In this document: one piece after another, positions 8,143-18,293 of the stretch
Layout of the letters: each line of letters opens with the position of its first letter
Numbering within the stretch: the stretch's first letter is position 1
DNA from: Salinivirga cyanobacteriivorans
GTDB taxonomy: Bacteria; Bacteroidota; Bacteroidia; Bacteroidales; Salinivirgaceae
Direction: 5' to 3'
Assembly: GCF_001443605.1 (NCBI RefSeq)
Contig: NZ_CP013118.1
Span: 1,995,501-2,059,500 of the forward strand
Length of the DNA stretch: 64,000 nucleotides
Translations under genes and position numbers: made by a program
Notes under the pieces: model-generated
Seen by the model: the letters and a program-made list of their open reading frames with translations, nothing else
Told to the model about the DNA's origin: nothing
The model's database searches: none

Positions 8143-8990
8143 AGGGTTTATAAGGTACAATTCAAGACTATGCAAATTTTTAAATCACAAGATGGAGTGG
8201 AGCGCCCTGGATGGACAAATACATTGTACCTACCACATGGAGAGAAATTGGTGTTGGTATTAACGGCAACATTCTTCAGGCATCAATGCGCTACCAGGCA
8301 TACATTATGAATGGATTTAATGGCTTCGACGGAGAAGGGCAGTTTGGTGGTAGTAGCGGACTAAGAGGAGGGCGTCAAAAGGCCATTGAGTCTTACATAA
8401 GCTCACCCAACTTTACAGGTAAAGTTGAGTATTACGGAATAAGAGGACTAAATATCGGCCTTTCCGGATATTTCGGAAGATCTCAAAGCCAGCTATACGA
8501 TGGCATAGAAAAAGACAACAGCGATGCAGAAGCCATAGCAGACTCATCAAGCGTGGGTATTTCAATGATCGGGCTGGATGCACGTTATCAATATCATGGT
8601 TTTGAAATGCGCGGCCAATACTACTATGCAGCAATAAGCAACCCAGACCAGTACAATGCCTTTACGGCAGCTGCAGATGGTACACCTAATGACCTTGGTA
8701 GTGAAATGTCGGGTTTCTATGCAGAAGCAGGGTATAACGTATTAAGACTTTTCTCCAACACCAACAAAAAACTCGTTCCTTTTGTGAGATATTAAAATTA
8801 CAACACCCACGCATCAGTGGAAGATCCTATTCAGCAGAACGATGCATATAACCGCTCTGTACTAACAACAGGATTATCCCTGCAATTATCAAAAGGAGCA
8901 GTATTAAAAACAGACGTACAATTTTTCAATAATGAAGCTGCCGATGAACCATCGCATGTATTCAATGCTGGTTTTGGTGTAATGTTTTAA
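8143..8990 (+). pseudogene. Decayed OprP/O-type porin (frameshift plus in-frame stop, N-terminus missing)
   Basis: The family motif GVERP-x-x-DKYIVPTTWREIG of Bacteroidota phosphate-selective-type porins is present but split. DGVERP is read in the frame open from 8143, whereas MDKYIVPTTWREIG is in the frame starting at 8211, so about one base has been lost near 8208. The second frame runs for 194 codons to FVRY and meets TAA at 8793-8795. It then continues in the same frame as NYNTHASVEDPIQQN and ends in the porin-like NAGFGVMF at 8990. The N-terminal half of a normal ~400-residue porin is absent: a TAG at 8140 closes the first frame and I see no upstream homologous sequence. The three lesions together make this a remnant. 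Sequencing error could explain one lesion but not the missing N-terminus. Confidence 0.8.
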
Positions 8991-14330: not shown

Positions 14331-15755
14331 CTATTTTTTGATTACTTTTTCCACAAAAATTCCGGAACCGGTATTCAATTGAACCAAATACAAACCCGGA
14401 CTATATGCAGCCATATTTATGCGCTCGCTGCCTTGAATATATTTTTGATAAATAACGTGTCCCGCTCCGTTGTAAACACGCAATTCTCCACCCGTAGACT
14501 TCACATTTAGCAAATCGGCGAATGGATTAGGATAAATATTAATTAATTCATTGCTGGTCAAATTATCAAAACCGTTCCCCAAATCCACAGCTGCTGTAGC
14601 AGTGGCCGAAATATTTGGAAAACCTGCAAGTGTAGCAGTGACTTCGAGCTCGCCTGATTGAGTAAGATGGAGTATATTATCCCCATCAACAGAGGCCCCG
14701 CTCAAATTTACAGACCAGTTAACGTCATAATCGGCAATCAGCCTCCCCTGATCAAAAGCATAGACCTCCAACTGCAAGGTGCTTTCATAAATCACAGGGG
14801 ATAAATCTTTTATTACGAGCGCAAGCGTTTCGCCGCTTATTGTAGCGTTTGGTGCCACATCAACAGCACCGGTTATCTCTGTAGAGACCTCTCCGAGCCA
14901 TCCTCCGTGAGCCAGCATACCATTTTGCACTTTTACAAAATCAACTTCATCCAACTGCACATAATTGCCGGCTGTATCGACGGCCCAATTTAGATCAAAA
15001 GCATCACCTCCCGAGTTCTCCAGCGTTTGCGTATAAGGGTTATCCGGCAAATCATAGGGCGCCTCACCGCGAAACTCGTTATCGGCATAGCCAAAACCCC
15101 GTTGGTAGATTTTCACCATTGAACTGGTGCTATCGACCGCCGGAAAAATTCGCGATGCGGTAAAACTATATGCTTCCTGATTAATTTCCGGAAAAGAATC
15201 GGCCAAAGGGTAATAAGGTTGGGGATGCACATCATTGGCATAAATATAGCCACTATTTCCAAGATTATCACTCCATGGTACATTTGCCGCTACACCAACT
15301 TGCGGGTTAGTATAACTTACCCAGTAATTATGAACCGTGCCTGAAAAATAGTAATCGCTACCGGCCAGTTGATACCATGTATCATCGGCTAGTCCATTCT
15401 GATTCTCATCCCTCATTACCCAAACAATACCGGGCTCGCTCCAATCGGGCATAGGATTGCCAAAAACAGTAAAATCCACACCAAACGGATTATCAGGATG
15501 GTTCTCCACAGGTGTTGCAAATTTGAACACTACATAGCCTCCCCATGCACCAAGTGACAGGTGACCATTTATACCTCCGGTGATACTACCGGCAGCAGAA
15601 GGCGTACCCCATGGAGCCTCATTAATCAGTTGCCCCGGAGCAGGCTTATACTCAAGCACCTCGCTGATATACTGGGCATGTGATGCATTTATTCCCGCTA
15701 CCAGTAAGACTGCTGAGCACACGCAAAAGATTTTATAAAAATATGTATTAAACAT
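14331..15755 (-). CDS. T9SS-sorted surface protein of the B12 uptake operon
   Basis: This 474-residue protein carries a signal peptide (cleavage near SHA-QY) and a large N-terminal domain starting VLEYKPAPGQLINE. In Bacteroidota this domain accompanies cobalamin transport loci and is usually annotated only as a cell-surface or PKD-domain protein. Then come an Ig-like segment (about residues 300-390) and a C-terminal T9SS type A sorting domain (INIYPNPFADLLNV ... VEKVIKK, ~400-474). It would be exported by SecYEG and then T9SS and fixed at the cell surface. Its place between the propeller/DUF4465 protein (4-nt gap) and the BtuB-like receptor (6-nt gap) suggests capture or hand-over of cobalamin. 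No enzymatic motif is visible. Confidence 0.75.
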   Translation of the reverse strand: MFNTYFYKIFCVCSAVLLVAGINASHAQYISEVLEYKPAPGQLINEAPWGTPSAAGSITGGINGHLSLGAWGGYVVFKFATPVENHPDNPFGVDFTVFGNPMPDWSEPGIVWVMRDENQNGLADDTWYQLAGSDYYFSGTVHNYWVSYTNPQVGVAANVPWSDNLGNSGYIYANDVHPQPYYPLADSFPEINQEAYSFTASRIFPAVDSTSSMVKIYQRGFGYADNEFRGEAPYDLPDNPYTQTLENSGGDAFDLNWAVDTAGNYVQLDEVDFVKVQNGMLAHGGWLGEVSTEITGAVDVAPNATISGETLALVIKDLSPVIYESTLQLEVYAFDQGRLIADYDVNWSVNLSGASVDGDNILHLTQSGELEVTATLAGFPNISATATAAVDLGNGFDNLTSNELINIYPNPFADLLNVKSTGGELRVYNGAGHVIYQKYIQGSERINMAAYSPGLYLVQLNTGSGIFVEKVIKK

Positions 15756-15759
15756 TGTA

Positions 15760-17913
15760 CTATTGTTTCACAATACGTTTGGTCGTAATTTGTTGTCCAT
15801 TTTGAATTTTCAGTATATACATGCCGTCGGGATATGCAGACAGGTCAATTTGCCGGCTATGCAGGGCATTTTTTATTTGTTGTAGTGCCTTTCCGGTATA
15901 ATCATACAATATACAACTGAATGTTTCGGTCGACTGTGATGAAACGGTTACCCGTTCTTTCGCAGGATTAGGATAAAGCGCGAATTCTGATTTTAAGGTA
16001 GTTTCCCTCTCTATTCCAACTTCTGCCTGGCCCACATAGAAATTATCTGCGCAATAATAAGCTGGTGTATTCATACCCCACTGGCCTTCGTCAGATGAAG
16101 ATAATGCCATTTGCAAGCTATCGACAAACCCGAGCGACTCGAGATCGATCCATTGCCAGGTTTCCACAATATAATCTTTGGAGTTATCCTCAAACCTGTA
16201 GTCAGCAAGGTAAAATGAAATTGTATCGGTAGGCATTTCATTATAAAAACCCCAAACCTGCAGTTTAAACCAGTCTGGATCGGAACCGGTTACGCCACCA
16301 AACTTTTTAGTAAACGCATCACCGTATTTCATTGAAAGGGCCGCATAAGTATTATTAGTTACATAAAACCCTTTCACCCGGTGTGCGTTTTCATCATCAA
16401 TACTAATTACGGGCATACCTGAAGCATATGAAACGCCATAAGTAGCACCATCTGAAGAAACCGAATCAAAGCCGCTGCCAGTGATGGCACTATATTGATT
16501 GCCATAACCCGCAGTACTATCATCAGTTACAGTTGAATAAGCCCAACCATTCCATGATCCATAATCTGGGTTATAATTATTTGGAAAAGCTAATAAACCC
16601 GATGTAAAACCTCCGGATGCATCTGACCCATTCCAATAATCATCCGCTCCGACCCCCATGCCTTCAAAGTCGCTAACTGTGTAGTCGCCATTAATCTCAG
16701 GATATGCACCCAATATCATTTCTGCACTTACAGATCTGCCTGCATTAGTGGCCGTTATGTAAATTGTTGTTTGGCCCGGTGCTACAATTTCAATTTGCAG
16801 AATTTGATCCTGTACACTCACTCCGGCTACTTCACTATTGCTGCTCGAAACCGTATAACTAAAATTATCAACGTCATCCGGATCTGTAAAGTGATTATTT
16901 AAATCAACAAAGATACTTTCAATTGAGGCCACTGTTTGTAGTGTTTCAAATGGCTCAGCCACTACAGGCCCATAATTATCTCCATTAACTTTAACCACTG
17001 GTCGTGCATAAGAGAGGGCGAAAGCACCATTATGCTCGCCCGGCTCCTTAACATCACCAATGGTTTTAACCATTGTAAACCAGTCATAATCGCCACCGGT
17101 AGTTGCCAAAGTATCATAAGTATTGCTGAAGCTGTTATAAATGGCGATCACTTTATCGCTGCTGTAATCATTGAAACTAAAAACCACATTACCTGCCTGA
17201 TCTACATCTGTATCGTATGCTCCTGCAGGAATATTAGTTAAAACAGCACCTTCCTCAAACGGCAAAGGGCTTGCCGTGGTATCCTCCATAACTGTAAGGA
17301 GGGCGTCGCCAGAGAAGCGAACCAACTGGTTGTTATCCGTAAAAGATGTACCATAATACAGATTTCCACTGGCATCGATGGCAAAACCAGCAGAGTTGCC
17401 TCCGGTTTCAACAAGTAAGCGATGATCATCACTACCCGTGGTGTCGAGCAAATATATTTTATTAGACTCACCATAAACAGCGCCATCGGCAATAAGGTAC
17501 CCATTAAAAATCTCAAGATCAAAATTACCGGTAAGGGTTGCCTCATGATGCCATGTTCCGGTAGATGTTGGGATTCTGTAAATTCTGTCGTCGGTGTTAC
17601 CCGTTACGGTATATCCGACCCAAATTTCTGTCCCATTCTCATTGACAGTGATAAAACTTGGAAAAGCGTCATAGGTATCGGGCTTTGCGTAAGTTGCCAA
17701 TTCGTTTCCGGTTGCAAGGTCCAACACACGAATGGTATCTCCCTCATTTCCATAAAGCAAACCGTCTCTGATATCAAACGTAGAGAACAGATCGTAATTG
17801 ACTAAAATATCCTGAGCCACATAATTCTCTCCGGCACTCACATAGCTATCCTGTGCCTTAATTCCGGCGGCATAGATCATTGCTACCAAAAACAAAAAGT
17901 AAAGCTTTTTCAT
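15760..17913 (-). CDS. Surface protein: YncE/BtuG-like beta-propeller + DUF4465 + T9SS sorting domain
   Basis: This 717-residue protein has a signal peptide (1-20) and a repetitive beta-propeller region (~25-320) with blade-like units such as GNLYYGTSF and GNVVFSFNDY. An Ig/cadherin-like segment follows (~325-405, ending QTTIYITATNAGRS). Next is a domain I read as DUF4465 (~410-625: FEGMGVGADDYWNG, GFYVTNNTYAAL, WFKLQVWG, W-x-WIDLESLG, ADNFYVG), then a T9SS type A sorting domain (~640-717, LYPNPAKERVTV ... TKRIVKQ). In Bacteroides, BtuG is a surface propeller that binds B12 with very high affinity, and DUF4465 proteins (BtuH) are a second B12-binding class. Here both appear in one chain, exported by T9SS instead of lipid-anchored. 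It is the first gene after the cobalamin riboswitch. The domain reading is by eye. Confidence 0.75.
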   Translation of the reverse strand: MKKLYFLFLVAMIYAAGIKAQDSYVSAGENYVAQDILVNYDLFSTFDIRDGLLYGNEGDTIRVLDLATGNELATYAKPDTYDAFPSFITVNENGTEIWVGYTVTGNTDDRIYRIPTSTGTWHHEATLTGNFDLEIFNGYLIADGAVYGESNKIYLLDTTGSDDHRLLVETGGNSAGFAIDASGNLYYGTSFTDNNQLVRFSGDALLTVMEDTTASPLPFEEGAVLTNIPAGAYDTDVDQAGNVVFSFNDYSSDKVIAIYNSFSNTYDTLATTGGDYDWFTMVKTIGDVKEPGEHNGAFALSYARPVVKVNGDNYGPVVAEPFETLQTVASIESIFVDLNNHFTDPDDVDNFSYTVSSSNSEVAGVSVQDQILQIEIVAPGQTTIYITATNAGRSVSAEMILGAYPEINGDYTVSDFEGMGVGADDYWNGSDASGGFTSGLLAFPNNYNPDYGSWNGWAYSTVTDDSTAGYGNQYSAITGSGFDSVSSDGATYGVSYASGMPVISIDDENAHRVKGFYVTNNTYAALSMKYGDAFTKKFGGVTGSDPDWFKLQVWGFYNEMPTDTISFYLADYRFEDNSKDYIVETWQWIDLESLGFVDSLQMALSSSDEGQWGMNTPAYYCADNFYVGQAEVGIERETTLKSEFALYPNPAKERVTVSSQSTETFSCILYDYTGKALQQIKNALHSRQIDLSAYPDGMYILKIQNGQQITTKRIVKQ

Positions 17914-18037: not shown

Positions 18038-18099
18038 CGATACTGTGGATAGCTCTATACCAGTATGATCAGCTTCCTGTTCACCGCAGGCTGCGAAAT

Positions 18100-18278
18100 C
18101 TGATATCACTGGCAGGTCTTCTGACTCTCCTCTGGTTACTGGCGCCTTCCCATTCTTCAGTTAAGAAAAGTGGCATGTTGCCAGTCCTTTGATGAGGATC
18201 ACAGCAGCGGGAACTGTTGCCGAATTTCGCGGCATTCCCTTTTCATCCCATGGTTAAAAAACCATTTCGGGAACCAAT
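18100..18278 (-). promoter_or_regulatory. Cobalamin riboswitch (B12 aptamer)
   Basis: The minus strand carries the class hallmark B12 box AGTCAGAAGACCTGCC (complement of 18111-18126). Upstream are the conserved GATGAAAAGGGAA block, GGAACAGTTCCCGC-type core elements (seen as CAACAGTTCCCGCTGCTGTGATC) and GGTTCCCGAAATGG at the 5' end. Order and spacing fit the adenosylcobalamin-type aptamer. It precedes the surface-protein/BtuB operon, so high B12 should repress uptake. Confidence 0.93.
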
Positions 18279-18285
18279 GATGAGA

Positions 18286-18293
18286 CAAAGGTA
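18286..18293 (-). promoter_or_regulatory. Bacteroidota -7 promoter element for the B12 operon
   Basis: On the minus strand TACCTTTG matches TAnnTTTG. It sits just upstream of the riboswitch 5' end, placing the transcription start near 18280. The gap 17914-18444 is thus explained by promoter, aptamer and leader. Confidence 0.6.

Follow-up and report, generated by a model that had tools for sequence, protein, structure and literature searches.

The 717-aa protein encoded in the window, i.e., the 64,000-nucleotide stretch of the Salinivirga cyanobacteriivorans genome analyzed here, is probably a riboswitch-controlled cobamide-capture protein that is exported by the type IX secretion system (T9SS) and whose gene opens a btuH-btuB uptake operon. 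The positions of its domains and of the neighboring genes are given in Table 1. The observation made on this gene in an earlier note is partly confirmed by the present analysis, and the reading drawn from it is partly supported.

Table 1. Features of the probable cobamide-capture locus, with positions in the window
Feature	Position	Strand	Residues or model span	Basis
717-aa protein: signal peptide, six-bladed propeller, Ig-like spacer, DUF4465/BtuJ and T9SS C-terminal sorting domain (CTD)	15760..17913	(-)		ORF; Pfam/NCBIfam; AF2
Signal peptide	17854..17913	(-)	1-20; mature N-terminus Q21, without lipobox cysteine	Sequence
Unnamed six-bladed beta-propeller domain (NTD), predicted	16978..17850	(-)	22-312	AF2; VIA
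Ig-like spacer	16702..16941	(-)	325-404	Strands in full-length model; Big_2 sub-threshold
DUF4465/BtuJ B12-binding jelly-roll (predicted binder)	16024..16692	(-)	408-630	Pfam; PDB matches; tyrosines; VIA
Type A T9SS CTD	15763..15978	(-)	646-717	TIGR04183; PF18962
Cobalamin riboswitch aptamer (RF00174), upstream of the operon	18094..18293	(-)	Full model, 1-189	cmscan, 101.5 bits, E 3e-24
BtuH homologue, 474 aa, with its own T9SS CTD	14331..15755	(-)		7biz (BtuH2), E 9.6e-35; 8blw_B (BtuG1 H-domain), E 1e-30; TIGR04183, E 5e-13
BtuB-type TonB-dependent transporter, 655 aa	12357..14324	(-)		8bmx_C, E 6e-104; 8p98, E 4e-101; PF00593 and PF07715

Riboswitch and the btuH-btuB operon

The gene had been placed under a B12 riboswitch in the earlier note, and this assignment was borne out: the RF00174 aptamer (gathering score, 31.5 bits) lies on the strand of the gene, 181 bp ahead of its start codon. 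The gene of the 717-aa protein comes first and is followed by btuH and btuB, with intergenic gaps of 4 and 6 bp; thus, co-transcription of the three genes from the riboswitch is likely. Residues 20-299 of the BtuH homologue are matched by 7biz, which shows homology to the C-terminal domain through which BtuH2 binds B12. The transporter matched TIGR01779 below its cutoff (63.6 vs 599.7 bits), and the PDB chains closest to it are the transporters of the Bacteroides BtuB-BtuG complexes 8bmx and 8p97/8p98; the strength of the match to 8bmx_C, the BtuB of the BtuB2G2 complex, indicates a transporter of the Bacteroides BtuB kind and not of the enterobacterial one. No btuG gene follows btuB within the window.

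The genome contains three cobalamin riboswitches, including the one described above. The other two are located at L059:2398-2600 and 8457-8650 (4.558 and 4.564 Mb); one precedes a transporter-like gene, behind which lie acyl-CoA (propionyl-CoA) carboxylase-like genes, and the other precedes anaerobic ribonucleotide reductase-like genes, all of them named from a reading of their sequences.

Export signals and domain layout

The signal peptide ends in IKAQ; because a lipobox cysteine is absent and Gln occupies position +1, the 717-aa protein is not a lipoprotein. The sorting tail was recognized by both the NCBIfam model TIGR04183 (53.1 bits against a cutoff of 23, E 2.3e-14) and the Pfam model PF18962 (residues 646-715, E 2.9e-14), and the genome encodes the SprA translocon (2456 bits against a cutoff of 200). 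The T9SS tail proposed in the earlier note is thereby confirmed, and its suggestion that the protein takes an export route different from that of the Bacteroides lipoproteins is supported by the predicted T9SS route.

The full-length AF2 model has a pLDDT of 89.5 and a pTM of 0.57, a value at which the mutual placement of the domains is not fixed. The Ig-like spacer, also proposed earlier, is folded in this model at about residues 325-404, though the match of Big_2 at residues 344-396 stays below the Pfam cutoff (17.7 vs 22.8 bits).

The DUF4465/BtuJ domain

The earlier note had named the lack of a DUF4465 match in the central domain as grounds for abandoning its reading. The profile search placed Pfam DUF4465 (PF14717) at residues 450-625 with an E value of 3.9e-51 and 174.4 bits against a cutoff of 25, covering positions 2-176 of the 176-position profile. 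DUF4465 proteins have been described as B12 binders (PMC13398666, PMC12751083), and binding of B12 has been shown for eight of its members with identities down to 16% (PMC13398666). The closest sequence matches in the PDB are 9hmu (E 1.1e-25) and BtuJ1 (9qpm/9fct, E 1e-19 to 2e-19), and the chains nearest to this region are DUF4465 proteins that were crystallized with B12 or are known B12 binders.

In the alignment to 9fct, all three conserved contact tyrosines of BtuJ1 (Y97, Y146, and Y245) are kept as Y470, Y523, and Y619, Y245 having been placed on the tyrosine of MNTPSY by the chain positions of 9fct, and W78 of BtuJ1 aligns with Y451. The NTPAY motif of the HI-loop is present as MNTPAY at residues 614-619. 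Within the full-length predicted model, the region matches 9hmu with a VIA Z score of 27.0 (rmsd 1.9, 201 aligned), BtuJ1 with 26.4-26.6 (9fct, 26.4), and BtuJ2 with 22.1 (9i2l), and it reproduces the augmented beta-jelly-roll seen in the solved complexes with B12. We predict with high probability that the DUF4465 domain of the 717-aa protein is a cobamide binder.

The N-terminal propeller

The N-terminal part had been described in the earlier note as a BtuG-like propeller; the propeller stood up to structure prediction, whereas the likeness to BtuG did not. The AF2 model of the NTD, built from an alignment of 11 homologues, has a pLDDT of 90.2 and a pTM of 0.88 and contains 24 strands, that is, six blades of four strands each. 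Its best VIA matches are the six-bladed Pizza6, NHL, and PknD propellers (Z 24-25 over model residues 9-290). The fold of the model is shared with the NHL/Pizza6/PknD and SMP-30/lactonase types of propeller (Z 21-25), but identities to these structural neighbors are 8-18%, and a family model match is lacking.

Profile searches gave no match of residues 22-330 to any propeller, YncE, or BtuG model in Pfam or NCBIfam, and no match of BtuG/DUF5074 (PF16819) at E values up to 1, either in the whole protein or in the 11 members of the NTD family. The 11-member NTD profile had no significant sequence match in the PDB and retrieved no BtuG chain, a comparison of the NTD family with DUF5074 sequences by hhalign gave an unconvincing probability of 43%, and a search of the NTD against a viral fold library yielded generic propellers only. 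BtuG is missing among the listed structural neighbors of the NTD, which by itself excludes nothing; BtuG2 is seven-bladed (PMC6143338). A true BtuG is encoded elsewhere in this genome, at 4.33 Mb, as a lipoprotein of its own (8p97_B, E 5e-107; 3dsm, E 1e-101), with none of the three riboswitches nearby. Within the genus, another genome encodes its homologue (64% identity) at L053:1751-2863, just upstream of a riboswitch. Given the lack of model and PDB matches, the six predicted blades, the hhalign result, and the separate BtuG in the genome, the identification of the NTD as BtuG was rejected; according to its model, the NTD is an unnamed six-bladed propeller family that is separate from BtuG.

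Conservation in the NTD is highest where the six inner strands begin, with a mean of 0.707. Random placement gave 0.587 +/- 0.031 and did not attain the observed value in any of 20,000 draws, and the other strand classes lie at 0.60-0.61. This pattern fits an axial binding pocket, but it can also be that of a structural core. The axial ring of the model includes N130, D132, S174, Y233, D234, and W278.

Occurrence and fusion partners of the propeller

Of 393 genomes sampled from the order, 10 yielded the NTD, whereas a phylum-wide sample of 395 genomes gave no copy outside the order; one further copy was identified in a Salinivirgaceae MAG (L032). Ten of the 11 copies studied are preceded by a same-strand cobalamin riboswitch at a distance of 104-629 bp. 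The following architectures were observed: (i) propeller-Ig-DUF4465-CTD in the window, L032, L053, L046, and L054, the last assigned by phmmer only, (ii) propeller-Ig-DUF5074-CTD in L049 and L050, (iii) propeller-BtuH-CTD in L052, and (iv) propeller-CTD without any other module in L047, L048, and L051. In the NTD tree, the four nearest DUF4465 fusions are grouped (97/97), and the remaining part is weakly resolved.

BtuH is encoded immediately downstream or is fused in all ten riboswitch-bearing loci, and BtuB then follows in every such locus with a long enough contig (the L054 contig ends). A BtuG-like DUF5074 gene comes after BtuB in L046, L047, L048, L050, and L052; the copy in L046 matches 3dsm with an E value of 1e-129. 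The idea that the NTD is a stand-in for a missing BtuG was rejected as a general rule, since btuG follows btuB in these five loci and the S. cyanobacteriivorans genome encodes BtuG elsewhere.

The eleventh copy (L049:7358-10096 (-), genome G220) is a propeller-DUF5074-T9SS gene located among genes for SusC, SusD, a GH29-type fucosidase, and a PNGase-like protein, as far as sequence reading allows naming them, and no cobalamin riboswitch was detected in this locus even with a permissive threshold. Since this copy lies outside a B12 locus, the NTD is not strictly a B12 module, and for the same reason B12 binding by the propeller is something that we infer. The DUF5074 module of another copy (L050:9399-12185 (+), residues 423-750) matches 9s6c, a quinoprotein amine dehydrogenase-like chain, with an E value of 2e-20 and matches no BtuG chain at E 0.001; thus, this module may have another ligand.

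Other module combinations in the order

Matches to the 717-aa protein were found in 111 of 295 genomes of the order, and in approximately 50 of the 111, by our count, the match spans the region from DUF4465 through the T9SS tail. Judging from these matches, DUF4465 proteins with a T9SS tail occur commonly in the order. Each of the 12 further DUF4465 loci checked has a cobalamin riboswitch.

Several other arrangements were observed at such loci. Tandem DUF4465 domains in one T9SS-tailed chain are encoded behind a cobalamin riboswitch in L078, L079, and L089, and a BtuH-DUF4465-T9SS fusion with a cobalamin riboswitch ahead is encoded at L087:1861-3867 (+). Another module without a name, about 225 aa long and with the motif PAAGQxGSTAI...DFAVFENxFxDTFLELAFVEVSSDG, occurs in riboswitch loci. 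It is fused before or after DUF4465 in L055:9474-11165 (residues 1-240), L077, L080, L083, and L088, is also present in L082, and is encoded by a separate gene next to that of DUF4465 in L033, L078, L084, and L089. This module had no match in Pfam or the PDB; its profile weakly resembles that of BtuH over 65 columns. Giant DUF4465 proteins are encoded at L084:978-10049 (+) (3024 aa), behind a cobalamin riboswitch, and at L091:1423-8760 (+) (2446 aa). The tandem, BtuH-DUF4465, and unnamed-module fusions indicate that shuffling of B12-capture modules on T9SS chains is general in this group, and that the protein of the window is one form of it.

Comparison with known B12-capture systems

The premise of the earlier note that the surface B12 binders of Bacteroides are separate lipoproteins is partly right. 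BtuJ1 and BtuJ2 (BT_1491/BT_1957, PF14717) are single-domain lipoproteins, but BtuGH of B. thetaiotaomicron (BT_1490, formerly BtuG1; 8blw_B) is already a fusion of a BtuG propeller and a BtuH domain, with B12 bound by both halves (PMC12751083). The BtuJ proteins share with the protein described here the jelly-roll (predicted in our case), the three B12-contact tyrosines, the MNTPAY loop, and the link to a riboswitch, whereas the propeller fusion and the T9SS tail are found only in the latter. BtuGH is similar in that a propeller and a second module are combined in one surface chain encoded in a btuB locus (PMC12751083, PMC10404256); however, it is a lipoprotein composed of BtuG and BtuH modules, whereas here a predicted six-bladed propeller of an unnamed family is combined with BtuJ and a T9SS tail. 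BtuG2 and BtuG3 (3DSM, 8p97_B; PF16819) are also beta-propellers of a B12 uptake system, but they are seven-bladed lipoprotein lids of BtuB, and no sequence relation of the NTD to them was found. The BtuH protein of the operon is homologous to BtuH2 (BT_1956; 7BIZ; E 1e-34), but differs from it by the T9SS tail and by the lack of a lipid anchor and of the N-terminal PKD domains. A B12 locus of B. thetaiotaomicron also encodes a lipoprotein that does not bind B12, BtuL.

In the literature searched, we found nothing that links the T9SS with BtuG, BtuH, or cobamide capture, and no description of T9SS export of B12-capture proteins, of a propeller-DUF4465 fusion, or of the NTD propeller family. 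Relative to this literature, the predicted export by the T9SS, the fusion to BtuJ, and the propeller family are new here, whereas B12 binding by DUF4465 and the fusion of two modules, as in BtuGH, were already known.

Proposed function and alternative explanations

In the proposed pathway, scarcity of cobalamin would permit expression of the operon, as expected for this riboswitch family. The 717-aa protein would cross the inner membrane via Sec, its signal peptide being removed before Gln21, and the CTD would take it through the outer membrane by the type IX system, after which it would be held at the surface or released. The DUF4465/BtuJ domain, whose fold and contact residues were recovered, would hold cobamides in a tyrosine-rich pocket by analogy with its relatives. 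From there, as suggested by the B. thetaiotaomicron system, the cobamide would be handed to BtuH, likewise exported by the T9SS, and to the BtuG lipoprotein and BtuB. The NTD would act as an extra module of the B12 locus that most likely either adds another corrinoid site to the chain or serves as its dock to BtuH, BtuB, or BtuG. The former role, favored by the stand-alone T9SS propellers behind riboswitches, is a realistic possibility that falls short of probable, and we would say the same of the latter, favored by the variety of fusion partners and by the L049 locus. It is possible, but tentative, that the NTD is a new surface corrinoid-binding propeller, a cassette swapped among T9SS B12-capture proteins, and that the chain carries two different corrinoid sites. 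Concerning the two corrinoid modules on one surface molecule proposed in the earlier note, the DUF4465 site is well supported, and the propeller site would follow from the genomic context.

The NTD may well have no corrinoid-binding function and instead dock or space the capture domain toward BtuB, BtuG, BtuH, or the cell surface, although we would not call this probable. Its fusion to three different binding modules, the copy joined to a DUF5074 module outside a B12 locus, and the constant presence of BtuH in riboswitch loci agree with such a role; on the other hand, the conserved axial ring argues for a binder, which is also better suited by a stand-alone T9SS propeller behind a B12 riboswitch in three genomes. 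As a six-bladed enzyme of the SMP-30/lactonase/PQQ-dehydrogenase type, the NTD would alter a corrinoid, or some different ligand, ahead of its uptake; such catalysis is highly unlikely. Lactonases, gluconolactonase, and PQQ sugar dehydrogenases are indeed among its structural neighbors (Z 21-24), and Asp/Asn residues are conserved at the inner strands, but the designed or non-enzymatic six-bladed Pizza6, NHL, and PknD match equally well or better, the identities are low, and the single stray match to SGL (E 0.0044) came from one member.

We give very little credence to the NTD as a BtuG-like lid, in which case the protein would be a BtuG-BtuJ fusion that, like BtuGH, caps BtuB directly. The propeller is real, it is encoded in a btuH-btuB operon, and btuG is missing after btuB in the window; against these points stand the lack of a BtuG/DUF5074 match, the six predicted blades vs seven in BtuG2, the separate BtuG of this genome, and the btuG genes right after btuB in the five loci listed above. 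The place of action was also considered: BtuJ1 and BtuJ2 of B. thetaiotaomicron act on extracellular vesicles (PMC12751083), and release of T9SS cargo is possible, so the 717-aa protein could work off the cell, on vesicles or free, and not as a surface-anchored receptor. This is unlikely, as A-LPS usually serves as the anchor of type A CTD cargo (PMC9143113).

Implications for B12 capture in Bacteroidales

Surface capture of B12 is known mostly from the lipoproteins of gut Bacteroides. In a large group of Bacteroidales-type genomes, the same BtuJ and BtuH modules would be delivered via the type IX route, and they are shuffled into chimeras that include one or more undescribed propellers. If the NTD binds a corrinoid, it would represent a new class of B12-binding fold; if it docks to BtuB or BtuG, it would reveal the route by which captured B12 is passed on, which is an open point in the field.
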